Assembly (NCBI GenBank): GCA_026874595.1
Contig: CM049308.1
Location: 11,187,501 to 11,251,500 of the forward strand
Direction of reading: 5' to 3'
Origin: Sipunculus nudus
Lineage: Eukaryota; Annelida; Sipuncula; Golfingiida; Sipunculidae
Length of the DNA stretch: 64,000 bases
The translations under genes and the position numbers were made by a program. A model generated the notes under the pieces. It searched no databases. It was not told the origin of the DNA and worked only from the letters and a program-made list of their open reading frames with translations. Of this stretch, positions 31,713 through 55,700 are shown in pieces (the stretch's first letter is position 1; every line of letters begins with the position of its first letter).

Positions 31713-34700
31713 CTGTAAAAAAGTATAAAAAAACTGTAAAACTTATGATAATATACATTTTTTGCAAATTTATATGGTACCTTGATTCATAACAAGAGCA
31801 CTGCAAATGGTGCATGATATGCCCTTGGCATGGCTTGCAACCTCTGACCTCACTAAATATGCGTGAATTTTTATGAAAAGGTAATTCAGCTGAAAAAATC
31901 TATTGGTAAATATGTGACATGGGTTTCATGAAAATCCATAGGATTTTTTGGTATGTAACCAAGGTGTCTCCAAAGTGCTGTGACCTCTGACCTCATCAAA
32001 TATGCATGGACTTTGATGGAAATCGAATTTAGGCAAGATATTTTTATTGATTAACATTTCTGATGAGTTTTATCAAAATACTTCATATTCTTCATACGTT
32101 ATCGCTGCGACAGAACAAAGTAGCCTAGTGACCTGTGACCTTATTAAATATGCGTGGATATTGCCCATAATCAAACTTGGGCAAGATAATTTGTTGGTTA
32201 GTAGTTATGGTGGGTTTCGTGAAAATTCATCAAAGCCCTGGTAATTTATAGAAGCAACACTAAGACCAACAGTGGATATACCATAATACTTCTGTCATAT
32301 GATGGGCGTATAACAATTAACCATAGGGCGAGTGAAAGAGACTCGCCCAGTCCGGCAAGTACTTTGAAAAATTAATGCCAAGGCCTGTCTAACAGATGAT
32401 ATTTCTGCCCTGGTACTGATTGGAGTTTTTTTCATGTCAGTAGACTAAATTTTTCAGTTAAAAATGTAATAATAAAGATGGCCTTACTTGATAAAACTAG
32501 AATATCAGCAGAAGCTGACAAAAGCCCTCAGCCAAAAGAACAGTGTTTAGAGGTGGTAACAGTAACAAGTACTAAATATCTGTTCTCACATGGATGTATA
32601 TCTGTACATGTCTCAGTTATAAATTTAAAATGGAGAGGCATGAACCATGATTCATAACAAGTGACCCATGGGTCATGACGCTCAGCTGACTGGGAAGAGA
32701 TTCACAAAAGGAAATTTTATCACCAGAATGGTAGTATATACCCATTCAACTGAAGCATCAAACAGATTAACCAACAGGCCAAGATTTAGTCTGTATTTAT
32801 ATATCTCAAAAATAGAGAAAAATGTGTAAACTTTTAAAACTAGAATACGGGTAACCGACAAGTGACTACATGTATCTGCCAAAATCGGATAGTGAGGCAT
32901 GGATTGAGTGGCAAGGGGAAATAGAGTGAGGTATGTTGCATATTAGCATGGATGTCTGCAGCCTAAATGTGTATGTAGGTTGTGCCACCTACCACAAATC
33001 CAGAAATCTGTCCAAGTTGTATACACCTGCAAAATTTTAGGCAGAAAAGTCAAACCACTACATGTATATGAGCGATTTTTGCCCATGGCAGACAAACAGA
33101 CAAACACCGTGCAAAAATCTTTGCAGGTAACCCCTCCAGTTTTGTGTATGATAAAGACCTATGTGAGATCTAAACACATGCACAATTTTGGCCCAATCGG
33201 TCAAATGGTTCCTGAGATATGAGGTTGGATGTGTCCAGCGTTAACTAGAATGTAGGTGGCGCCACCTGTCATAAAATCAAGAAAGCTGTCCACGATGTAT
33301 TAACCTGCAAAATTTTAGGCAGTTATGTCGAACCACTACAGAGAAATGAGTAATTTTAGGCCACGGCAGACTAACAGACAGACGCTGTGCAAACATTGTT
33401 ACAGGTGGCGCCACCATTTTTTGTGTATGTTACAGAGCTATCAAAGGGCTACATTTGTATAAATTTTATTTCCTGATCGGTCAAACGGTTCCCGAGATAT
33501 AAGCTTGGATGTCATCAGCATGAACGTGAACATAGGTGGCGCCACCTGTCATAAAATCAAGAAAGCTATCCTGGATGTATACACATGACGAATTTCAGGT
33601 GAATTAGTCAATTCACTGCAGAGATATGAGTGATTTTAACCCAAGGCAGATGAACAGATGGACACTGTGCAAACATGGTTACAGGTGGCGCCACCATTTT
33701 TTGTGTATGTTATAAAGCAATCCAAGGGCTACATTTGTATCAATTTTATTTCCTGATCGGTCAAACGGTTCCCAAGATATGAGGGTTTATGAGTAGAAAC
33801 AGACCCACAAATGGACACTGGATAGAGAGGAAAGGTCAGAGGTCAATGCAAATTGGTTAGGCACCAGTTCACATGTGACCCGATAATAGGTGTAAGTTTG
33901 GGAAAAATCGGTCCATTAGTCTCTGAGGAGCTCTCTGGAAACGAACGCCGCCACGGCGGAGGAACTCGGTCAAAAACATAGTATCCGCAAAACTTCGTTT
34001 TGGCGGATACAAAAATACAGGTGGCTCCACCAGTCTGCAGAAACTAATAAAAACACTTAATGGTCAATATCCATGCAAAAAATCATGGTGATCTCTGCAT
34101 TAGTTGTTCAGATACTTCAGTTTTTGTATCAAATTGTCCATTATTCTGAGGGATACTTCGGAGTCCTATAGCTTGAAGGATATGGGTAACAGAGACCTAA
34201 TTTCAAGTTTCCACAGGCACCTTTCATGGGCCTCCTTGCATGACAAGAATGAAGATTCTAGGTCCAGTTGTTGCGATTTGTATCCTGTTGACAGATAACC
34301 ACATCTTTAAAGGTCTCAAAAAAAAGAAAAAAATTCGTAAAAATTTGAAAAAAAAATAGAGGTGGCACACCCAGTCTGCAGAAACTGATGGAACAGCTCA
34401 TGATCAATATGTATGCCAAAAATCATGACCATCAGTGTTGTAGTTATTGAAATACTGCAGTTTTTGTATCAAATTTTCCATTATTCATGGGGGGGGGGGG
34501 GGGTATTTTGGACCCATACAGCTTAAAGAATATGGGTAACAGAGACCTAATTTCAAGTTTCCATGGAGACTTTTCATGGGTCTCCCTGTGTGTCAAGAAT
34601 GAAGATTCTTGGTCCAGTTTTTATGATTTGTGCCCTGTTAACAGATGTTCACATTTTTAAAGGTCTCAAAAATAGAGAAAAAAATTCGTGAAAAATTGAA

Positions 34701-37700
34701 AAATACAGGTGGCGCCACCAGTCTGCAGGAAGTGATGTAACATCTCATGATCAATATGTACGCCAAAAATCATGACCATCAGTCAAGTAGTTAATGAGAT
34801 ATTGAAGTTTTTGTATGAAATTTTTTACTTTTCTGGGAGGTACTTTGGGGCCACAAAGCTAGAAGGATATGAGTAACAGAGACCAAATTTCAGGTTTCCA
34901 TGGAGACTTATCATGGGTCTCCCTGTGTGTCAAGAACGAAGATTCTAGGTCCAGTCGTTACGATTTGTACCCTGTTGACAGATAACTACATCCTTAAAGG
35001 TCTCAAAAATGGAGAAAACAATTTGTGAACATTGAAAAATACAGGTAGCGCCACCAGTCTGCAAAAACTGATGAAACATCTCATGATCAATATGTATGTC
35101 GAAAATCATGACCATCAGTGATGTAGTTAATGAGATATTGAAGTTTTTGTATGAAATTTTTGACTATTCTGGGGGGTAATTTTGGGCCCCATAGCTCAAA
35201 GGATATGGGTAACAGAGACCTAATTTCTGGTTTCCATGGAGACTTTTCATAGGTCTCTCAGTGTGTCGAAAATGAAGATTCTAGGTCCAGTCGTTACGAT
35301 TTGTGCCACGCTAACAGATGACAGCATCCTCAAAGGTCTCAAAAATAGAGGAAAAAATCGTAAAAAATCAAACGGTACAGGTGGCGCCACCAGTCTGCAG
35401 GAACTGATCGAACATCTCATGATCAATATGTATGCCAAAAATGAAGACCATCAGTGATGTAGTTATTGAGATATTGAAGTTTTTGTATGAAATTTTTTAC
35501 TATTCTGGGGGGTACTTTGGGGCCCGATAGCTCAAAGGATATGGGTAACAGAGACCTAATTTCTGGTTTCCAAGGAGATTTTTCATGGACCTCTCAGTGT
35601 GTCAAGAATTAAGATTCTAAGTCCAGTCTTTATGATTTGTGTCTTGTTAACAGATGTTCACATTTTTAAAGGTCTCAAAAATAGAGAAAAAAATTCGTAA
35701 AAAATTGAAAAATACAGGTGGCGCCACCAGTCTGCAGGAAGTGATGTAACATCTCATGATCAATATGTATGCCAAAAATCATGACCATCAGTCAAGTAGT
35801 TAATGAGGTATTGAAGTTTTTGTATGAAATTTTTGACTTTTCTGGGGGGTACTTTGGGGCCCCATAGCTCGAAGGATATGGGTAACAGAGACCTAATTTC
35901 TGGTTTCCAAGGAGATTTTTTATGGACCTCTCAGAATCCCAAGTTACAAGGTTCTAGGTCCAGCAGTTACGATTTGTGCCTGGTTAACGGACGGACAGAC
36001 GGACAGACGGACAGACGGACGACGGACAAAGAGTGATCGCTATAGCTCAGATGACTTTCAGTCAGCTGAGCTAAAAATCCACCAAATGTTTCCTGAAAAA
36101 TAAGCTTCTAAGTTTTATTCTATTATCAGCTCTGTGACCATGAAAAGTATGTCAAGGTCACCCATCTTTGAACTTGACCGAGATTTTGTCGATATACAGC
36201 TTCACCAAAGAAATAAAATTCCTATTGTGAATCCTTTTAGAGATATCCCGCTCACAAGGCCAAAGTTGAAAAATCCAAGAAAAATTCATTAAAAATAAGA
36301 AATTGCAGGTGGCACCACCAAACTTGTGCAGCAGTTACAGACCATCACTCCCTATGATCATAGTAAGTATTGTGAAAATCCAGCCAATGGTTCCTGAGAA
36401 TTAAGCTTCTAAATGTTTTTTCAGCTCTAAAACGTAGAAAAATAGGTCAAGGTCACCCATCTTCGAACTTGACCGAGATTTTGTCAATATACATCTTCAC
36501 CGAAAAAATAAAATTCCTACGGTGAATCCTTTTAAAGATATCCCGCTCACAAGCCCAAAGTTGAAAAATCCGATAAAAATTCATTAAAAATCAGATATTG
36601 TAGGTGGCACCACCAAACTTGTGTAGCAGGTACAGATTATCAGTCCCAATAATCATAGTTAGTTTTGTGAAAATCCACCAAATGGTTCCTGAGTAATTAG
36701 CATCTAAGTGTTATTCTATAATCAGCTCTAAAATGTAGAAAAATAGGTCAAGGTCACCCATCTTCGAACTTGACCGAGATTTTGTCGATATACATCTTTA
36801 CCAAGGAAATAAAATTCTGACGGTGAATCCTTTTCAAGATATCCCGCTCACAAGGTAAAAGTAAACGGACGCCGGACGGACAGACGGACGGACGGACAGC
36901 TTGGGTGACGACAATAGCCCAGCAGCCTAAGGGCTGAGGGCTAAAAAAATGTTCAAGTCCAGGAATAGATTAACCTTTGGAAAAAAAGTTTCTAAAAGTC
37001 TACCAATATAAATAAAAATTTTGCTGATTAAAGACAGAAGTGATCAATGTAATCAAGAAAATGGCAAGGTAAATATGGCATCTATGGTCAAATATCATCC
37101 ATGTAAGCCATATTAAAATAGAGTGGACATCAGAATACAAATTCATCAACTGAAGAGTGCATAATATCAATAGTGCCATTTAGTGAGAGATTACAACATT
37201 ACCTTCTGATGGAACATCTAGGTCAATTTTTATATCAAAATCATGGACTGCAAAGAGATCATGTGACTGCTGCCCCCCTCTGTCATCATTCCTGCCTTTA
37301 CTGCCTGGGTCACCATCCTGTTGAGAGAATACACAGTTAATTATACACACAGAAATGCAGGGATGTGCAGTTTGTATGTCTTACAACAATAGAACCTGGA
37401 AAACAAGTGGTCACATACCATGACATGAAACTGCAACACAAGCAGCAAGCGTTTTCAGTTCATCATATTACACAGAAAGTAACATGACTTAACAAGTATC
37501 ACGCCAAAATAATCTTGGTAATAGATAATAATTATACATGGGTACTGGGTAAGCACATTAAATCAACTGTTGAAAACAGATGCTTTCCTCACTGAGACAC
37601 AGAGATAATTATCTAATGACTGACCATCAGTCATGGGACATAAATAAGAAATTTACCAATATTATGTTTTTACTGAAAAGGTATCTCCTTCCAGTGAACA

Positions 37701-40700: not shown

Positions 40701-43700
40701 ATATCCATATTAACAAAGTAAACCACCACCCATATCCCCTTAAATAATTTGTATTTCCAATTCTAACGTGCAATTATGTGAACCACAAATAAAAACATAA
40801 CTGAACTAAAATAAACTTATCTGGAGGAAAATTTACTAAAAATAAACCACTTGTTTAAAATCAAAATCTGATTTCTCTTCACATGACAAATGAAAATTAG
40901 ACTTTCCTAAATGACACTTTCACTGATCTTAAGATATAAAGAATTATATCAAATTTAAGAGCTGAAAATATTCAAAATGATTTGCAAATTATTCCTGATT
41001 TGAAGTTAGGTATTATGGACAAGATACAAGTGAAAAAAAAACATGGTAAATAAATATAAGAACTAGAATACGGGTAGTCGACAAGCGACTACTTGTATCC
41101 GCCTAAATCAGAGTGGAACGGGTGAAGTGTTGCATATCAGCATGGATGTCTGCAGCCAAATTGTGTATGTAGGTTGCGCTACCTACCAAAAAATCCAGAA
41201 AGCCGTCCAAGTTGTATACATATGCAAAATTTAAGGCAGATAAGTCAAACCACTATATTGTATATGAGTGATTTTTGCCCTTGGCAGACAAACAGATGGA
41301 CGCTGTGCAAAAAAGGGTTGCAGGTGGCGCCACCAGTTTGATAAAGTATGAACAAGAGCTTTGTGAGAACTCTACACATGCAAAATTTTGGCCCAATCGG
41401 TCAAACGGTTCCCTAGATATGAGCTTGGATGTCTGCAGCGTAAACTTGATTGTAGGTGGCGCCACCTGTCATAAAATCAGATAAGCTATCCAGGATGTAT
41501 AAGCATGCAGAATTTCAGGTGAATTAGTCAAACCACTGCAGAGATATGAGTGATTTTAACCCAAGGCAGACGAACAGCTGGACACTGTGCAAACATGGTT
41601 GCAGGTGGCGCCACCATTTTTTGTATATGTTATAAAGCTCTCTAAGGGCTACATTTGTGCAAAAAAATTTTCCTGATCAGTCAAACGGTTCCTGAGATAT
41701 GAGCTTGGATGTCTGCAGCGTAAACGTGAATGTAGGTGGCGCCACCTGTCATAAAATCAGAAAAGCTATCCAGGATGTATACGCATGCCAAATTTCAGGT
41801 GAATTAGTCAAGTTACTGCAGAGATATGAGTGATTTTAACCCAAGGCAGACAAACAGATGGACACTGTGCAAACATGGTTGCAGGTAGCGGCACCATTTT
41901 TGGTGTATGTTATAAAGCTCTCCAAGGGCTACATTTGTGCAAAAGAATTTTCCTGATCGGTCAAACGGTTCCCGAGATATGAGCTTGGATGTCTGCAGCG
42001 TAAACGTGAATGTAGGTGGCGCCACCTGTCATAAAATCAGATAAGCTATCCAGGATGTATACGCATGCCAAATTTCAGGTGAATTAGTCAAGTCACTGCA
42101 GAGATATGAGTGATTTTAACCCAAGGCAGACGAACAGATGGACACTGTGCAAACATGGTTGCAGGTGGCGCCACCATTTTTGGTGTATGTTATAAAGCTC
42201 TCCAAGGGCTACATTTGTGCAAAAGAATTTTCCTGATCGGTCAAACGGTTCCAGAGATATGAGCTTGGATGTCTGCAGCGTAAACGTGAATGTAGGTGGC
42301 GCCACCTGTCATAAAATCAGAAAAGCTATCCAGGATGTTTGCGCATGCCGAATTTCAGGTGAATTAGTCAAGTCACTGCAGAGATATGAGTGATTTTAAC
42401 CCAAGGCAGACGAACAGATGGACACTGTGCAAACATGGTTGCAGGTGGCGCCACCATTTTTGGTGTATGTTATAAAGCTCTCCAAGGGCTACATTTGTGC
42501 AAAAAAATTTTCCTGATCGGTCAAACGGTTCCCGAGATATGTGGGTTTATGTGTGGAAACAGACGCACAAACGGACGCAGAGCCCAGAGGAAAGGTCAGA
42601 GGTCAAAACAAAATCGGGGCGCAGCAGTTCACATGTGACCCGAACATAATCCAGGGTTTCTGAAAATTCCACCCAGCGGTTACGGAGGAGTTCTCCGGAC
42701 ACCTACGCGGCGGCGGCGGCGGCGGCGGCGGCCAGCTGAAAACATAGTATCCGCAAAACTCTGTTTTGGCGGATACAATTAATATTCTTGGAATTTCAAG
42801 CTTAAACATATAAATCCCATATTCATAAACACAAAATAAAACTTTTGGAAGAATTATATCTTGATTCAAGCGTGTGGTGCAAGCCTCCCTGATGCTTTTT
42901 CAAGCCAACCGAAGAAACATGGGCTGTTGTTGGTAAAAACATTCTAAGGGAGACAAAGTATACAGTGCATATTTATAGAGCATCTATTCAGTTATTTCTT
43001 TAATTGTTCAATTCTTCCATAGTCCTTTTTTCTTATACAGGTTTTAAGATGTCATGCTGAATTGCTGGTCAGATGTGATGGGAGTTACATATCTCTTGAA
43101 TTAATTACTTCACAACCTAATTGTCACCCTAACAGCAAGGGATTAGTGGTAAGAATGTGGTTTTCAGCCCCTAGTGTACTATTGAGTCTACTGCCCCCCC
43201 CCCCCCCCCCCCCCCCCTCTCCCGGGCACTACCCCAATTATTATAAAAGCTGCACTTAACTAACAACCTTTAAATGACAGACCAGTGATACATGATTAAC
43301 ATGGGTTAACCTGTAACATTATGTTATGTAGGGTGTGGTCAGTGGTTGGGTTATAGAGTAAGCCTTAAAGATTTGTTAGTAACCCATCCTATATGATATA
43401 TATACGAATATAACCTGTAGTAAATAACTCAAATCCCCAATCATCATCATTGCTGTATGTTTGTTTAACCAAAAGAGTCTAGAACATTACAAAAGGATGA
43501 CAATTCAAGGGATAATTTGGCTAAATTATTAGGATCTTGACCAACCACTCATATGTTAAGGAATGATTGAGGAAAAGTGTTATGACTGTGACAAATCACT
43601 GTTATCTTCTGGGACTTTTGGGTCAAATTATTATGACTGGGACAGCTCATTGGTATACTTAGTGATACTTGGGTTTAATTAAGATGACTTAGCAGATTAT

Positions 43701-46700
43701 TGATAAACTTAGGGATAAACTGAAGACTGGGTATTTTAGGAAAATTTGGGTAAAAATATGACTGGGCAGATCACCAAGACAAATCACTGATATACTTTGG
43801 GATAACCTGGAACATATCACTTGCATTCTGGTACATTGTAGAAAATTACACAAATCACTTATAAACTAAAGTATTATTGCAATATATCACTATTATATTA
43901 AAAGATATTTGAAACATATCACTGATACACTTTCAGATAACGTGGACAGATCACTGATACACTTAAGGAAATCTGAGACATATGACATATATACACAGAG
44001 ATGACTAGGTCATATCAATGATATACCTACAGATAACTCATACACTGGGAATAACTGGTAAAAACTTAATAACTAAGACATCACAGATATACTAAGGGAT
44101 AAGTGGGCTTGATTAATGATACTTATTTTCACTGGAATAGATAACTAATACACTGAATAACTGTTTAAATTAATCTGATTTGAAAAGATTGCCGATTGGT
44201 TAATGTGGATATTATTTTATTCTGAGATAATGCAGTGAAGCATAATTTATGTCAATTCAAGGTATAATATTCAGACAACTATCAGCGAGAATTATAGTCA
44301 AGGTTCTTACATGAGGATTAGCTTTGGCCAATTCCTGTTGCTCAGCTTCTTTCTGTTTCTCCTGATCTGCAAGCTTCTCCACTTGTGCCCGCGTACTCTG
44401 ATAAAAAACAAAGTAATTCATAAACACTCCAATTGTGCCTGCTAAGTCTGATAAACAAGTGACCCATGGGTCATGACGCTCAGCTGACTGGGAAGAGATT
44501 CATAAAAGGAAATTTTATCATCAGAATGGTAGATACCCATTCAACTGAAGCATCAAACAGAACAACCAACAGGCCAAGATTTAGTCTGTATTTATATATC
44601 TGAAAAATAGAGAAAAAATGTGTAAACTTTAAAAACTAGAATACGGGTAGCCGACAAGTGACTACGTGTATCTGCCAAAATCAGAGTGAAGTGAGGCATG
44701 GATTGAGTGGCAAGGGGAAACAGAGTGAGGTATGTTGCATATTAGCATGGATGTCTGCAGCCTAAATGTGTATGTAGGTTGTGCAACCTACCACAAATCC
44801 AGAAAGCTGTCCAAGTTGTATACATATGCAAAATTTTAGGCAGAAAAGTCAAACCACTGGATATGAGTGATTTTAGCCCACGGCAGACAAACAGACAGAC
44901 GCTGTGCAAAAATGGTTGTAGTTTTGTGTATGATAAAGACCTATGTGAGATCTAAACACAAGCACAATTTTGGCCCAATCGGTCAAATGGTTCCTGAGAT
45001 ATTAGCTTGGATGTGTGCAGCGTTAACTAGAATGTAGGTGGCGCCACCTGTCATAAAATCAAGAAAGCTATCCAGGATGTATAAACCTGCAAAATTTTAG
45101 GCAGATATGTCAAACCACTACAGAGAAATGAGTGATTTTAGGCCACGGCAGACCAACAGACAGACGCTGTGCAAAATGTGCAAAAATGGTTGCAGGTGGC
45201 CCCTCCAGTTTTGTGTATGATAAAGACCTATGTGAGATCTATACACATGCAAAATTTAGCCCAATCGTTCAAACGTTTCCGAGATATGAGCTTGGATGTC
45301 TGCAGCGTGAATGAGAATGTAGGTGGCACCACCTGTCATAAAATCAAGAAAGCTATCCAGGATGTATACGCATGCCGAATTTCAGGGGAATTAGTCAATT
45401 CACTGCAGAGATATGAGTGATTTTAACCAAAGGCAGATGAACAGATGGACACTGTGCAAACATGGTTACAGGTGGCGCCACCATTTTTTGTGTATGTTAT
45501 AGAGCTATCCAAGGGCTACATTAGTATAAATTTTATTTCCTGATCAGTCAAACGGTTCCCGAGATATGAGCTTGGAAAGCTGATAAAATCAAGTCCCACA
45601 GGAGCTCTCTGGAAACGAATGCGGCAACGGCGGAGGAACCCGGTCAAAAACATAGTATCCACAAAACTTCGTTTTTGCGGGTACAAAAATACAGGTGGCT
45701 CCACCAGTCTGCAGAAACTAATAAAAACACTTACAAACATCAATATCCATTCAAAGAATCATGGTGATCTCCCCATTAGTTGTTCAGCTTTTGTATCAAA
45801 TTGTCCATTATTCTGAGGGATACTTCGGAGTCCTATAGCTTGAAGGATTGAAGGATATGGGTAACAGAGACCTAATTTTAAGTTTCCACAGGCACTTTTC
45901 ATGGGCCTTCTTGCATGACAAGAATGAAGATTCTAGGTCCAGTTGTTGCGATTTGTACCCTGTTGACAGATAACCACATCTTTAAAGGTATCAAAAAAAG
46001 AGAAAAAAAATCGTAAAAATATGTAAAAATAGAGGTGGCGCACCCAGTCTGCAGAAACTGATGGAACAGGTCATGATCAATATGTATGCCGAAAATCATG
46101 ACCATCAGTGTTGTAGTTATTGAGATACTGCAGTTTTTGTATCAAATTTTCCATTATTCTGGGGGGTAATTTGGAGCCATACAGCTTAAAGAATATGGGT
46201 AACAGAGACCTAATTTCAGGTTTCCATGGAGACTTTTCATGGGTCTCCCTGAGTGTTAAGAATGAAGATTCTAGGTCCAGTTTAATGATTTGTGCCCTGT
46301 TAACAGATGTTCATAACTTTAAAGGTCTCAAAAATAGAGAAAAAATTCGTAAAAAAACCCGAACAAATACAGGTGGTGCCACCAGTCTGCAGAAACTGAT
46401 GAAACACTCCATGATCAATATCCATGAAAACAATTATGGTGATCTCTGCATTAGTTGTTCAGATACTTCAGCTTTTGTATCAAATTTTCCATTATTCTGA
46501 GCTGTACTTTGGAGTGCCATAGCTCAAAAGATATGGGTAACAGAGACCTAATTTCAGGTGTCCATGGAGACTTATCATGGGTCTCCCTGTGTGTCAACAA
46601 TGAAGATTCTAGGTCCAGTCCTTACGATTTGTACCCTGTTGACAGATAACTACATCCTGAAAGGTCTCGAAAATAGAGAAAAAAAAATTGTGAAAATTTG

Positions 46701-49700
46701 AAAAAATACAGGTGGCACCACCAGTCTGCAGGTACTGATGAAACACCTCTTGATCAATATGTATGCCAAAAATCATGACCATCAGTGTTGTAGTTATTGA
46801 GATGTTGCAGTTTGTTTTTATCAAATTTTCCATTATTCTGGGGGGTTATTGGGAGCCCCCCATAGCTCAAAGGATAGGGGTAACAGAGACCTTATTTCAG
46901 GTTTCCATGCAGACTTTTTATGGACCTCTCAGTGTGTCAAGAATGAAGATTCTAGGTCCAGTCTTTATGATTTGTGCCCTGTTAACAGCTGTTCACATTT
47001 TTAAATTCTTAAAAAATCGAAAAATTCAGGTGGCGCCACTAGTCTGCAGGAAGTGATGGAACATCTCATGATCAATACGTATGCAAAAAAAAACATGACC
47101 ATCAGTCAAGTAGTTAATGAGATATTGAAGTTTTTGTATGAAATTTTTTACTTTTCTGGGGGGTACTTTGGGGCCCCATAGCTCGAAGGATATGGGTAAC
47201 AGAGATCTAATTTATGGTTTCCACGGAGACTTTTAATAGGTTTCTCAGTGTGTCGAGAATGAAGATTCTAGGTCCAGCGGTTACGAATTGTGCCACGTTA
47301 ACAGATGACAGCATCTTTAAACGTCTCAAAAATAGAGGAAAAAATTGTAAAAAAAATCAAAAAATACAGGTGGCGCCACCAGTCTGCAGGAACTTATGGA
47401 ACATCTCATGATCAATATGTATGCCAAAAATCATGACCATCAGTGTTGTAGTTATTGAGATATTGAAGTTTTTGTATGAAATTTTTTACTATTCTGGGGG
47501 GTACTTTGGGGCCCCATAGCTCGAAGGATATGGGTAACAGAGACCTAATTTCTGGTTTCCAAGGAGATTTTTCATGGACCTCTCAGTGTATCAAGAATTA
47601 AGATTCTAGGTCTAGGCTTTACGATTTGTGCCTTGTTAACAGATGTTCACATTTTTAAAGGTCTCAAAAATAGAGAAAAAAATTTGTAAAAAATCGAAAA
47701 ATACAGGTGGCGCCACCAGTCTGCAGGAAGTGATGGAACATCTCATGATCAATATGTATGCCAAAAATCATGACCATCAGTCAAGTAGTTAATGAGATAT
47801 TGAAGTTTTTGTATGAAATTTTTGACTTTTCTGGGGGGTACTTTTGGGCCCCATAGCTCGAAGGATATGGGTAACAGAGACCTAATTTCTGGTTTCCAAG
47901 GAGATTTTTCATGGACCGCTCAGAATCCCAAGTTACAAGGTTCTAGGTTCAGCGGTTACGATTTGTGCCTGGTTAACGGACGGACAGTCGGACAGACGAA
48001 CAGACGGACAAAGAGTGATCGCTATAGCTCAGATGACTTTCAGTTAGCTGAGCTAAAAAACCACGCAAATCATGAACACTCCACTTGTGCCAGCTTAGTC
48101 TGATAAAAAAACAATGTAAGTCATAAACACTCAACTTGTGCCTGCTAAGTCTGATTAAAAAAACATATTAAGTCATAAACACTCCCCTAGTGCCTGCTTA
48201 GTCTGATAAAAAAAACAAAGTAAGTCATAAACACTCCACTTGTGCCAGCTTAGTCTGATAAAAAAACAAAGTAAGTCATAAACACTCAACTTGTGCCTGC
48301 TAAGTCTGGTTAAAAAAACAAATTAAGTCATAAACACTCCACTAGTGCCTGCTTAGTCTGATAAAAAAAACAAAGTAAGTCATAAACACTCAACTTGTGC
48401 CTGCTAAGTCTGATTAAAAAAAAAAATAAAGTCATAAACACTCCACTAGTGCCTGCTTAGTCTGATAAAAAAAACAAAGTAAGTCATAAACACTCCACTA
48501 GTGCCTGCTAAGTCTGATTAAAAAAAAACAAATTAAGTCATAAACACTCCACTTGTGCCTGCTTAGTCTGATAAAAAAAACAAAGTAAGTCATAAACACT
48601 CCACTTGTGCCTGCTAAGTCTGATTAAAAAAACAAAGTAAGTCATAAACACTCCACTTGTGCCCACGTACTCTGATAAAAAAAACAAAGTAAGTCATAAA
48701 CACTCCACTTGTGCCTGCTTAGTCTGATAAAAAAACAAAGTAAGTCATAAACACTCCACTTGTGCCTGCTTAGTCTGATAAAAAAACAAAGTAGGTCATA
48801 AACACTCCACTTGTGCCTGCTTAGTTTGATAAAAAAATCAAAGTAAGTCATAAACACTCCACTTGTGCCTGTGTACTCTGATAAAACAACAAAGTTAGTC
48901 ATAAACACTCCACTTGTGCCTGCTTAGTCTGATAAAAAAACAAAGTAAGTCATAAACACTCCACTTGTGCCTGCTTAGTCTGATAAAAAAACAAAGTAAG
49001 TCATAAACACTCAACTTGTGCCTGCTTAGTTTGATAAAAAAATCAAAGTAAGTCATAAACACTCCACTTGTGCCTGTGTACTCTGATAAAACAACAAAGT
49101 CAGTCATAAACACTCCACTTGTGCCTGCTTAGTCTGATAAAAAACAAAGTAAGTCAAAAACACTCCACTTGAGCCTGCTTAGTTTGATAAAAAAATCAAA
49201 GTAAGTCATAAACACTCCACTTGTGCCTGCTAAGTCTGATAAACAAGTGACCCATGGGTCATGACGCTCAGCTGACTGGGAAGAGATTCGCAAAAGGAAA
49301 TTTTATCATTAGAATGGTAGTATATACCCATTCAACTGAAGCATCAAACAGATTAACCAACAGGCCAAGATTTAGTCTGTATTTATATATCTCAAAAATA
49401 GAGAAAAATGTGTAAACTTTTAAAACTAGAATACGGGTAACCGACAAGTGACTACATGTATCTGCCAAAATCGGATAGTGAGGCATGGATTGAGTGGCAA
49501 GGGGAAATAGAGTGAGGTATGTTGCATATTAGCATGGATGTCTGCAGCCTAAATGTGTATGTAGGTTGTGCCACCTACCACAAATCCAGAAAGCTGTCCA
49601 AGTTGTATACACCTGCAAAATTTTAGGCAGAAAAGTCAAACCACTACATGTATATGAGCGATTTTTGCCCATGGCAGACAAACAGACAAACACTGTGCAA

Positions 49701-52700
49701 AAATCTTTGCAGGTAACCCCTCCAGTTTTGTGTATGATAAAGACCTATGTGAGATCTAAACACATGCACAATTTTGGCCCAATCGGTCAAATGGTTCCTG
49801 AGATATGAGCTTGGATGTGTGCAGCGTTAACTAGAATGTAGGTGGCGCCACCTGTCATAAAATCAAGAAAGCTGTCCACGATGTATAAACCTGCAAAATT
49901 TTAGGCAGTTATGTCGAACCACTACAGAGAAATGAGTGATTTTAGGCCACGGCAGACTAACAGACAGACGCTGTGCAAACATTGTTACAGGTGGCGCCAC
50001 CATTTTTTGTGTATGTTACAGAGCTATCAAAGGGCTACATTTGTATAAATTTTATTTCCTGATCGGTCAAACGGTTCCCAAGATATAAGCTTGGATGTCA
50101 TCAGCGTGAACGTGAACGTAGGTGGCGCCACCTGTCATAAAATCAAGAAAGCTATCCTGGATGTATACGCATGACGAATTTCAGGTGAATTAGTCAATTC
50201 ACTGTAGAGATATGAGTGATTTTAACCCAAGGCAGATGAACAGATGGACACTGTGCAAACATGGTTACAGGTGGCGCCACCATTTTTTGTGTATGTTATA
50301 AAGCAATCCAAGGGCTACATTTGTATCAATTTTATTTCCTGATCGGTCAAACGGTTCCCGAGAAATGAGGGTTTATGAGTGGAAACAGACCCACAAATGG
50401 ACACTGGATAGAGAGGAAAGGTCAGAGGTCAACGCAAATTGGTTAGGCACCAGTTCACATGTGACCCGATAATAGGTGTAAGTTTGGGAAAAATCGGTCC
50501 ATTAGTCTCCGAGGAGCTCTCTGGAAACGAACGCCGCCGGGGTGGAGGAACTCGGTCAAAAACATAGTATCCGCAAAACTTCGTTTTGGCGGATACAAAA
50601 ATACAGGTGGCTCCACCAGTCTGCAGAAACTAATAAAAACACTTAATGGTCAATATCCATGCAAAAAATCATGGTGATCTCTGCATTAGTTGTTCAGATA
50701 CTTCAGTTTTTGTATCAAATTGTCCATTATTCTGAGGGATACTTCAGAGTCCTATAGCTTGAAGGATATGGGTAACAGAGACCTAATTTCAAGTTTCCAC
50801 AGGCACCTTTCATGGGCCTCCTTGCATGACAAGAATGAAGATTCTAGGTCCAGTTGTTGCGATTTGTACCCTGTTGACAGATAACCACATCTTTAAAGGT
50901 CTCAAAAAAAAGAAAAAAATTCGTAAAAATTTGAAAAAAAATAGAGGTGGCACACCCAGTCTGCAGAAACTGATGGAACAGCTCATGATCAATATGTATG
51001 CCGAAAATCATGACCATCAGTGTTGTAGTTATTGAAATACTGCAGTTTTGGTATCAAATTTTCCATTATTCTGGGGGGGGGGTATTTTGGACCCATACAG
51101 CTTAAAGAATATGGGTAACAGAGACCTTATTTCAAGTTTCCATGGAGACTTTTCATGGGTCTCCCTGTGTGTCAAGAATGAAGATTCTTGGTCCAGTTTT
51201 TATGATTTGTGCCCTGGTAACAGATGTTCATATCTTTAAAGGTCTCAAAAATACAGAAAAATTTCGTAAAAAAAACCGAACAAATACAGGTGGAGCCACC
51301 AGTCTGCAGAAACTTATGAAACACTCCATGATCAATATCCATGCAAACAATTATGGTTATCTCTGCATTAGTTGTTCAGATACTTTAGCTTTTGTATCAA
51401 ATTTTCCATTATTCTGAGCTGTACTTTGGAGTGCCATAGCTCAAAGGATATGGGTAACAGAGACCAAATTTCAGGTTTCCATGGAGACTTATCATGGGTC
51501 TCCCTGTGTGTCAAGAACGAAGATTCTAGGTCCAGTCGTTACGATTTGTACCCTGTTGACAGATAACTACATCCTTAAAGGTCTCAAAAATGGAGAAAAC
51601 AATTCGTGAACATTGAAAAATACAGGTGGCGCCACCAGTCTGCACAAACTGATGAAACATCTCATGATCAATATGTATGTCTAAAATCATGACCATCAGT
51701 GATGTAGTTAATGAGATATTGAAGTTTTTGTATGAAATTTTTGACTATTCTGGGGGGTAATTTTGGGCCCCATAGCTCCAAGGATATGGGTAACAGAGAC
51801 CTAATTTCTGGTTTCCATGGAGACTTTTCATAGGTCTCTCAGTGTGTCGAAAATGAAGATTCTAGGTCCAGTCATTACGATTTGTGCCACGCTAACAGAT
51901 GACAGCATCCTCAAAGGTCTCAAAAATAGAGGAAAAAATCGTAAAAAATCAAACAGTATAGGTGGCGCCACCAGTCTGCAGGAACTGATCAAACATCTCA
52001 TGATCAATATGTATGCTAAAAATGAAGACCATCAGTGATGTAGTTATTGAAATATTGAAGTTTTTGTATGAAATTTTTTACTATTCTGGGGGGTACTTTG
52101 GGGACCCATAGCTCGAAGGATATGGGTAACAGAGACCTAATTTCTGGTTTCCAAGGAGATTTTTCATGGACCTCTCAGTGTGTCAAGAATTAAGATTCTA
52201 AGTCCAGTCTTTATGATTTGTGCCTTGTTAACAGATGTTCACATTTTTAAAGGTCTCAAAAATAGAGAAAAAAATTCGTAAAAAATCGAAAAATACAGGT
52301 GGCGCCACCAGTCTGCAGGAAGTGATGTAACATCTCATGATCAATATGTATGCCAAAAATCATGACCATCAGTCAAGTAGTTAATGAGATATTGAAGTTT
52401 TTGTATGAAATTTTTGACTTTTCTGGGGGGTACTTTGGGGCCACATAGCTCGAAGGATATGGGTAACAGAGACCTAATTTCTGGTTTCCAAGGAGATTTT
52501 TTATGGACCTCTCAGAATCCCAAGTTACAAGGTTCTAGGTCCAGTGGTTACAATTTGTGCCTGGTTAACGGACGGACAGACGGACAGACGGACGACGGAC
52601 AAAGAGTGATCGCTATAGCTCAGATGACTTTCAGTCAGCTGAGCTAAAAAACAAAGTAAGTCATAAACACTCCACTTGTGCCTGCTTAGTCTGATAAAAA

Positions 52701-55700
52701 AACAAAGTAAGTCATAAACACTCCACTTGTGCCTGCTTAGTTTGATAAAAAAATCAAAGTAAGTCATAAACACTCCACTTGTGCCTGTGTACTCTGATAA
52801 AACAACAAAGTCAGTCATAAACATTCCACTTGTGCCTGCTTAGTCTGATAAAAAAACAAAGTAAGTCATAAACACTCAACTTGTGCCTGCTTAGTTTGAT
52901 AAAAAAATCAAAGTAAGTCATAAACACTCCACTTGTGCCTGTGTACTCTGATAAAACAACAAAGTTAGTCATAAACACTCCACTTGTGCCTGCTTAGTCT
53001 GATAAAAAAAACAAAGTAAGTCATAAACACTCCACTAGTGCCTGCTTAGTCTGATAAAAAAATCAAAGTAAGTCATAAACACTCCACTTGTGCCTGCTAA
53101 GTCTGATAAAAAAACAAAGTAAGTCATAAACACTCCACTTGTGCCTGCTTAGATTGATAAAAAAATCAAAGTAAGTCATAAACACTCCACTTGTGCCTGT
53201 GTACTCTGATAAAACAACAAAGTCAGTCATAAACACTCCACTTGTGCCCATGTACTCTGATAAAAAAAAAACAAAGTAGGTCGTAAACACTCCACTTGTG
53301 CCTGTGTACTCTGATAAAACAACAATGTCAGTCATAAACACACCACTTGTGCCCATGTGCTCTGATAAAAAAACAAAGTAAGTCATAAACACTCAACTTG
53401 TGCCCATGTACTCTGATAAAAAAAAACAAAGTCATAAATACTCCACTTGTGCCCATGTACTCTGATAAAACAACAAAGTAAGTCATAAACACTCAACTTG
53501 TGCCTGCTAAGTCTGATTAAAAAAAACAAATTAAGTCATAAACACTCCACTAGTGCCTGCTTAGTCTGATAAAAAAAACAAAGTAAGTCATAAACACTCC
53601 ACTTGTGCCTGCTAAGTCTAATTAAAAAAACAAAGTAAGTCATAAACACTCCACTTGTGCCTGCTAAGTCTAATTAAAAAAAACAAAGTAAGTCATAAAC
53701 ACTCCACTTGTGCCTGCTAAGTCTAATTAAAAAAACAAATTAAGTCATAAACACTCCACTAGTGCCTGCTTAGTCTGATAAAAAAAACAAAGTAAGTCAT
53801 AAACACTCCACTTGTGCCTGCTTAGTCTGATAAAAAAAACAAAGTAAGATATAAACACTCCACTTGTGCCTGCTTAGTCTGATAAAAAAAAACAAAGTAA
53901 GTCATAAACACTCAACTTGTGCCCATGTACTCTGATAAAAAAAAACAAAGTCATAAATACTCCACTTGTGCCCATGTACTCTGATAAAACAACAAAGTAA
54001 GTCATAAACACTCAACTTGTGCCTGCTAAGTCTGATTAAAAAAAACAAATTAAGTCATAAACACTCCACTAGTGCCTGCTTAGTCTGATAAAAAAAACAA
54101 AGTAAGTCATAAACACTCCACTTGTGCCTGCTAAGTCTAATTAAAAAAACAAAGTAAGTCATAAACACTCCACTTGTGCCTGCTAAGTCTAATTAAAAAA
54201 AACAAAGTAAGTCATAAACACTCCACTTGTGCCTGCTAAGTCTAATTAAAAAAACAAATTAAGTCATAAACACTCCACTAGTGCCTGCTTAGTCTGATAA
54301 AAAAAACAAAGTAAGTCATAAACACTCCACTTGTGCCTGCTTAGTCTGATAAAAAAAACAAAGTAAGATATAAACACTCCACTTGTGCCTGCTTAGTCTG
54401 ATAAAAAAAAACAAAGTAAGTCATAAACACTCCACTTGTGCCTGCTTAGTCTGATAAAAAAAAACAAAGCAAGTCATAAACACTCCACTTGTACCTGCTT
54501 AGTCTGATAAAAACAACAAAGTTAGTCATAAACACTCCACTTGTGCCCATGTGCTCTGATAAAAAAACAAAGTCAGTCATATAAACACTGGTGGTGTGCC
54601 ATTTAATACATTATATTGATGAAGGGAAATTTTCTTTCAAAACCTATTTCAAAACCTGATTGCATTTTTGCATAATTGATCACAAACAATTCTGAAGTCA
54701 TAATACCCTGACAAAATATTCTTATTCTGTCTGAGATATAAGTGTCAGCAAACTTGCCATGACCTTGACTTTTCAGTGTGACGTAAGACTAGACAAAATT
54801 TAATTGGTCAATATTTAGGTATCTATAATTATATACATCACATTTCACACTGATAAAGATGTTACATAAAATACTTCATTAATAATTGTTCATTGGTTAT
54901 TTTCTATCTTTCAATCATAGAATATGCTTTTACAACCAATTCTTACCACTAATAAAAATTCCATTTGTGCTCGCATACTCTGATGAAACAACAAAGTCAG
55001 TAATAAACACAAGTCCGGTTATCATTGAATATAGCTTTGTACCATACATAGGTTTTTGAGCACTAGTTCTTTCAGAACTTTGCCTGCATGTAATTTTTTA
55101 CTGCATATTATTTTTTGCTTCATTTGGGTAAAGCCTCACAACAACACAAATTCAAATTCCTGCTTCACTCATTTATTAATCATCTGAGTAGACAGAAGCA
55201 ATAATAATCTTGAAATGACAGAAAGAAAACACTTGCTTGAGCTTCAACATTTGTGTTATATTAACACAGTTATTAAGATATTGGACAGTATTAGCCCTTA
55301 TTTGTTTATTACTTTTTATAACCAAAGAGCCATTCTTAAATAAAGCTGAATGATTTGTCAACACCTGGCGTAAAAATGAATGATCAAGCCTTAAAAAACT
55401 TGAGAAGGCTTCTATAACCAGTTGTAGCTCACCTTGGTGACCATGGTGGGACGACACTGCCGTCGTGTGAACGGATCAGCTGTAGCTTGCTTCATCTCAG
55501 CTACCTCCTGCTTAGCTGCCTCTTCAGCATCAATGATATTTTTCAACCGATTCCTCTGGTTGATATAACTATAAATAAACATGTTGTACAATATAAGTAA
55601 CCCTAACTTTTCCACAGAATGCGAATCTATGCCATCTGCAGAAGAGTACCGTGGTCAGCTTCATATTTGCGAGGTTAGATATTTATGATTTTTATTTTTT

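Follow-up and report, generated by a model that had tools for sequence, protein, structure and literature searches.

A mirage-type minisatellite built from the exon-10 acceptor in intron 9 of Sipunculus nudus RTF1

The 64,000-nucleotide stretch of the Sipunculus nudus genome analyzed here (C3:11187501-11251500 within the 1.43-Gb assembly; hereafter the window) carries the RTF1 gene on its minus strand, in 12 mapped exons running from 63756 to 37203 that join into a single open frame of 472 amino acids. The joined frame matches the RTF1 chains in the PDB with an E value of 1.3e-128, and the first seven relatives listed for the protein are scallop, snail and abalone proteins with 62-65% identity. 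Intron 9 of this gene contains 62 near-copies of the 3' splice site together with the first ~21 nt of exon 10, 60 of them arranged in two arrays and two standing as outliers (Table 1), which agrees with the roughly 60 sense-orientation near-copies claimed in an earlier interpretation of the window made from its letters and reading frames (the sequence-only reading). The structure is a mirage: such repeats have been described in amphioxus, and this one is large for its kind. That reading did not recognize the published class.

When the window was searched with the 20-mer at the start of exon 10, allowing up to 6 mismatches, the minus strand gave 63 matches, namely the exon itself, 37 units in array 1, 23 in array 2 and the outliers at 44447 and 54979; the plus strand gave none at the same threshold, and 20 mononucleotide shuffles of ~52 kb returned a mean of 0.7 matches and a maximum of 2. 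In a control at up to 5 mismatches, on both strands and with each query counting itself, each of the 11 remaining mapped exon starts has 1-5 copies and each of the 12 exon ends 1-9, compared to 63 for the exon-10 start. The unit consists of ~31 intronic bases, made up of a branch-point-like CTNAC, a T-tract and ATCAG, followed by 21 exon bases, and adjacent heads inside the arrays are spaced 49-54 bp apart. At the boundary the AG is intact in 56 of the 62 copies, the remaining six reading ATCAA, and CTNAC stands at roughly the distance of a branch point in 47, where the true site reads ATTAC. On the plus strand of the intron, the complement of the units' branch-point region reads as 36 copies of a strong donor-like AAA/GTAAGT (here and below a slash marks a splice boundary).

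The series ends in the true acceptor, which is a unit in its own right and aligns with the majority unit consensus at 90% identity across 51 bp; its closest single unit is the one at 48671 (92%), and it clusters with eight units of the AGTAC/AGCAC type (support 0.83). A hybrid unit query carrying the exon's own head gave 94% for the true acceptor and 90% for the isolated copy at 54979, values that are not independent of the exon, for which reason the majority consensus is preferred. Mean pairwise identity among 59 aligned array units is 0.88, and the averages against the other units are 0.85 for the true acceptor and 0.76 for the 5'-most unit; of the three units with such an average only decoy 44447 falls lower (0.65), because a HINE (a non-autonomous Helentron-like element) has replaced half of it. 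Array 1 includes an exact duplication in which 54432-53886 equals 53913-53367, at a shift of 519 bp. High internal identity, this duplication and the diverged 5' unit are together characteristic of unequal exchange in an array whose edge has diverged.

A search of the whole genome with a dimer of the unit returned 39 matches, every one inside intron 9, a count that is a lower bound; the repeat search of the genome DNA skips very common words. The exon-9 and exon-10 stretches each have one full-length match in the genome, and a protein search of the genome found only these two exons plus one non-significant match (E 7.7). Because the unit is reported nowhere else, exon 10 is single-copy and the other 11 exon starts are unamplified, the array was born at the RTF1 locus, and its local origin by tandem duplication of exon 10's own acceptor is well supported. 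The sequence-only reading had proposed this same origin, which now draws on the locality of the unit, the single-copy exon and the 90% match of the acceptor. It had also named, as grounds for giving the proposal up, a similarity limited to low-complexity sequence; we rejected low complexity as the source because the non-repetitive exon head itself is what recurs. In the mechanism we propose, a ~51-bp piece across the intron-9/exon-10 boundary, with branch point, T-tract, AG and ~21 exon bases, would have been tandemly duplicated and would then have grown by unequal exchange into the minisatellite, which a miniature inverted-repeat transposable element (MITE) and two HINE copies later split. 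Its local origin, its copy number, its repeated internal duplication and its splitting by these three elements can be read at the locus. As in mirages, the units thus lie in tandem across a single intron-exon boundary of an actual gene, RTF1, and are local to it; many of them keep the AG, and the array is homogenised inside and diverged at its edges.

Table 1. Features of the RTF1 intron-9 region (positions in the window)
Feature	Coordinates	Strand	Remarks
RTF1 exon 9	55433..55568	-	exon i of the sequence-only reading; 3' end ...MVTK/gtgagc
RTF1 intron 9	44398..55432	-	11,035 bp, donor 55433 to acceptor 44397; houses the whole structure
RTF1 exon 10	44311..44397	-	exon j of the sequence-only reading; acceptor ...TTTGTTTTTTATCAG/AGTACGCGGGCAC; single genome copy
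5'-most unit, acceptor 54979	54960..55010	-	82% to majority unit consensus over 51 bp; 84% to nearest single units
Short dispersed repeat, MITE-like	54589..54951	.	~363 bp; ends TAGTGG...CCACYA; between 5'-most unit and array 1
Array 1	52646..54588	-	37 unit heads (54555 to 52690); contains 547-bp exact duplication
HINE copy C (non-autonomous Helentron-like)	49244..52645	-	3.4 kb; in a unit's T-tract; 336-bp and 280-bp tandem repeats
Array 2	48055..49243	-	23 unit heads (49235 to 48099)
HINE copy B	44456..48054	-	3.6 kb; same unit position as copy C, in T-tract
Last decoy, acceptor 44447	44427..44455	-	branch point and most of T-tract replaced by the end of HINE B
HINE copy A	32658-36072		downstream of mapped exon 12; same ends, without units

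The sequence-only reading mentioned no inserted elements; two HINE copies and a MITE-like repeat in fact split the units, and the range it gave, up to 54595, takes in both arrays and leaves outside it the 5'-most unit at 55010-54960. HINE copies A and C carry 13-bp subterminal inverted repeats, GCTCAGCTGACTG and CAGTCAGCTGAGC, with one change in the 5' arm of copy B, and the 14-bp 3' palindrome TGACCCATGGGTCA is present in all three copies. A GTCC-like microsatellite and internal 280/336-bp repeats are found in these elements, and each of the three copies comes after a run of T, features that match the descriptions of HINEs in the portions of PMC4067079 and PMC7492417 cited here. With flanks included, identity is 95.9% between A and C, 93.6% between B and C and 91.5% between A and B. 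Because B and C share their insertion site and are followed by an almost identical unit (0.98), their arrangement suggests a single insertion followed by duplication of the element plus units, in which case A would be a later copy of C, or A and C would have converted each other; B and C may also have inserted independently. Copy C is nearer to the distant A than to B despite the common site of B and C, which suggests re-transposition from C or gene conversion. A further HINE-type array of 280-bp repeats (5 copies, 41134-42541) lies in RTF1 intron 10, with (GCG)n nearby at 42707-42732.

The MITE-like repeat is flanked on its two sides by unit sequence, ATTTTTAT and GTGTTTAT, from which it follows that the array was once continuous across it. 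A genome search that scored 40 of 255 candidates gave 43 matches, of which 37 are other genomic places resembling the start of this repeat, and four copies of the repeat were compared. We take the hAT label for this repeat, and the motif of TAG...CTA ends with an 8-bp target duplication, as an assumption of ours; the two 8-bp flanks in the window differ from each other at 2 bases. The repeat also brings a donor, GTG/GTAAGA at 54946, which at 8.4 bits is the best non-authentic sense donor of intron 9 and which closes an open, in-frame 33-nt frame on the minus strand (54979-54947) with the acceptor of the 5'-most unit, a pairing equaled or bettered on the donor by 19 of 1559 other AGs. We rejected the idea of a separate, selected microexon, as the donor belongs to a dispersed repeat; for that reason the copy at 54979 is an edge unit of the array cut off by the insertion. 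A transposon-assisted 33-nt microexon is possible, yet probably fortuitous.

At the position matching the exon-9/exon-10 boundary, the RTF1 of Magallana gigas (P0072) has a 9-amino-acid insert, RNPVISHSA, after VTKA, which echoes the local AR(N/D)P motif and is missing in three close relatives with 93-94% identity (P0032, P0033, P0034). Here the protein perhaps reflects in-frame use of a duplicated acceptor at the matching boundary, protein evidence being the basis.

The acceptors were scored in two ways, with a general splice-acceptor consensus and with a position weight matrix built from the gene's other 11 acceptors (the gene matrix). The splice-site scoring that the sequence-only reading had proposed for every unit gave a divided answer: on the general consensus 30 of the 62 decoys equal or exceed the true acceptor, and on the gene matrix only 5 do. 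These two scales disagree, and the gene matrix is noisy, because real sites left out one at a time range from -4.4 to 12.1. Sense donors are rare, only 12 of the 669 GTs of intron 9 (the true donor included) scoring at or above the weakest real donor. A donor of at least 5.5 bits lies within 300 nt of 8 of the 62 copies, and in frame for 2; six of the eight use donor 53343, one the real exon-10 donor and one the MITE donor. The donor at 53343 is a moderate sense donor, GTG/GTGTGT, inside unit 53361, so the claim that no unit contains one does not hold. Going upstream from exon 10, the first decoy to retain a branch point and T-tract of its own is 48099, at a distance of 3.7 kb. Decoy 44447 precedes the true acceptor by only 50 nt; its last 20 intron bases score 6.1 on the general consensus and 7.7 bits on the gene matrix, where the unit medians are 7.8 and 7.4, placing it mid-range, and it is the decoy most likely to leak. 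An in-frame stop falls within 10 codons in 58 of the 62 copies, and use of these decoys would therefore be unproductive; the premature stop foreseen by the sequence-only reading is thus found in nearly all copies, while its frame running on to TGA is not general, 16 heads (ACTTAG) stopping already at codon 2. Recursive splicing was dropped because the base after the unit acceptors is A (T in 1 of 62), with no GT in that place.

In exon definition, an acceptor is selected through pairing with a downstream donor. Intron 9 would still be spliced from donor 55433 to acceptor 44397: the 87-nt exon that begins there has a donor of its own at 44311, so that exon definition would choose this acceptor, and most decoys, having no donor in reach, would be passed over as part of the intron. 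Most likely the array is under next to no selection, and it is probably harmless to RTF1. The view that we hold with good confidence is that of an RTF1 mirage of local origin, still spliced from 55433 to 44397, whose array is near-neutral. Several observations weigh against this view. On the gene matrix the true site stands above 57 of the 62 decoys, and local sequence could thus account for some of the discrimination. Among 347 AGs of intron 9 outside the arrays, 12 reach the true score on the general consensus and 2 on the gene matrix. Decoy 44447 together with the real exon-10 donor could form a 137-nt exon with a stop at codon 2. Among relatives there is little conservation of the exon-10 head, STRAQ, which clouds the history of that head, and normal splicing of intron 9 is something we infer from sequence.

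A different outcome would follow if U2AF and U2 assembled on dozens of donor-less acceptors and so delayed or detained intron 9, with RTF1 output following copy number, directly or via nonsense-mediated decay. The retained AGs and CTNAC motifs favor such an effect, as do two published cases: in human OGT and further genes, intron retention is promoted by decoy exons to which splicing factors bind but which are seldom spliced in (PMC12017769), and a donor-bearing variable number tandem repeat (VNTR) alters ABCA7 splicing (PMC5954066), both according to the passages of these papers cited here. However, the OGT effect depends on decoy 5' splice sites (PMC12017769, same passages), which nearly all units lack; a decoy exon has both a 3' and a 5' splice site, and a donor is near only 8 of the 62 copies. 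Amphioxus mirages, moreover, are reported in the cited parts of PMC3087553 and PMC3902484 to leave splicing normal. In the 59 aligned units the splice-critical columns are not clearly more conserved than the others, the G of the AG being lost in 6 and the branch-point A in 4, with 6 of the 21 exon-head columns invariant. We regard this delay as unlikely, and find it slightly less likely still that the array acts as a copy-number-dependent brake on RTF1, in which donor-less acceptors sequester U2AF and U2 and detain intron 9, or, as a second possibility, that the MITE donor yields the 33-nt microexon. A regulatory role of the array is possible but unsupported. The sequence-only reading was right, as a matter of sequence, that the spliceosome would meet about 60 near-copies before the true site; the slowed splicing and the tuning through nonsense-mediated decay that it offered find no support, with few decoys having a donor in reach and the nearest intact one 3.7 kb upstream, and the anatomy argues mainly for its third option, tolerance.

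The origin of the array could also be told in the reverse direction, with an older intronic minisatellite overlapping the exon and donating its present start. STRAQ is indeed variable among the aligned RTF1 relatives while the preceding VTK is mostly conserved; the residues after STRAQ, however, resemble scallop and abalone RTF1 in an alignment judged by eye, no second location in the genome is reported for the unit, and it holds the entire acceptor in register with the exon, all of which leaves this direction improbable. Some of the copies could be an artefact of assembly, as the 547-bp stretch that repeats without any difference suggests, but the remaining units differ in many combinations. 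No haplotig is seen, because the exon-9 and exon-10 stretches are each found once at full length; a second copy of exon 10 from the other haplotype was not found in the genome search, which covered a one-haplotype assembly, and we consider the artefact very improbable. Nor do we accept the minisatellite as cargo of the flanking HINE elements. Bivalve HINEs often carry tandem arrays, as the cited portion of PMC7492417 describes, and both arrays abut HINE ends, but copy A has the same ends and no units, C and B each sit within a unit's T-tract, and the unit's restriction to the locus again stands against it; the chance that this explanation is correct is minimal. Local duplication of the exon-10 acceptor, with the elements arriving later, is the account that we retain.

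In the amphioxus genes Adh3, TnC, the globins BflGb6 and BflGb9, and PGBD5, mirages are minisatellite-like tandem duplications across an intron-exon boundary that are stated not to disturb splicing (PMC3087553, PMC3902484), and they turn over with internal duplication and homogenisation as seen here (PMC3087553), in the excerpts of these reports that we cite. No report of mirages outside cephalochordates was recognized in literature searched by titles and the starts of abstracts, a search whose coverage leaves most subscription journals outside. In a 200-kb genome sample (20 stretches, 4,545 N) there are 6 minisatellites with a period of 20-200 and at least 3 copies; the one of the six that was inspected by eye, an array with a GTAAG unit, showed no recognizable splice boundary at its edge. 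This array (L017, 4923-5903) has a 30-bp unit in ~33 copies with GTAAG in the consensus, and its stretch also holds another array related to it.

The RTF1 array extends mirages beyond cephalochordates, at a copy number far above the amphioxus globin cases, and offers a natural test of exon definition, in that ~60 acceptors locally resembling the true one share one intron of a conserved gene. It further shows how such arrays are broken up by elements inserting into T-tracts, and how a transposon can supply a donor next to an acceptor that has been duplicated, from which a new exon could plausibly begin to form. Should the brake operate after all, changes in minisatellite length, even somatic ones, would set the dose of a general transcription-elongation factor.

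Among the systems to which the locus can be compared, the VNTR in intron 18 of human ABCA7 is alike in that its intronic unit contains an exon's own splice signal; it differs in repeating a donor, with a 25-bp unit starting with GT, and in being reported to alter splicing (PMC5954066, cited in part). The decoy exons of the detained introns of OGT, SF3B1 and ARGLU1 are likewise long-intron splice sites able to engage the spliceosome, but the OGT decoy exon needs its 5' splice site (PMC12017769, cited in part), whereas most RTF1 units have no donor nearby. With bivalve HINEs and pearl-type Helentrons the inserted elements share subterminal inverted repeats, a 3' palindrome, a GTCC-like microsatellite, tandem repeats and insertion at T-runs; here they are insertions into the array and not its source. 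The amphioxus mirages, as far as the excerpted accounts go, are alike in their boundary-spanning units, many intact splice signals, homogenised interior and diverged edge units. The RTF1 array differs from them in lying in a non-cephalochordate genome, in being split by HINE and MITE insertions, and in its size, with 62 copies compared to 3 or 6 in the two amphioxus BflGb6 haplotypes.

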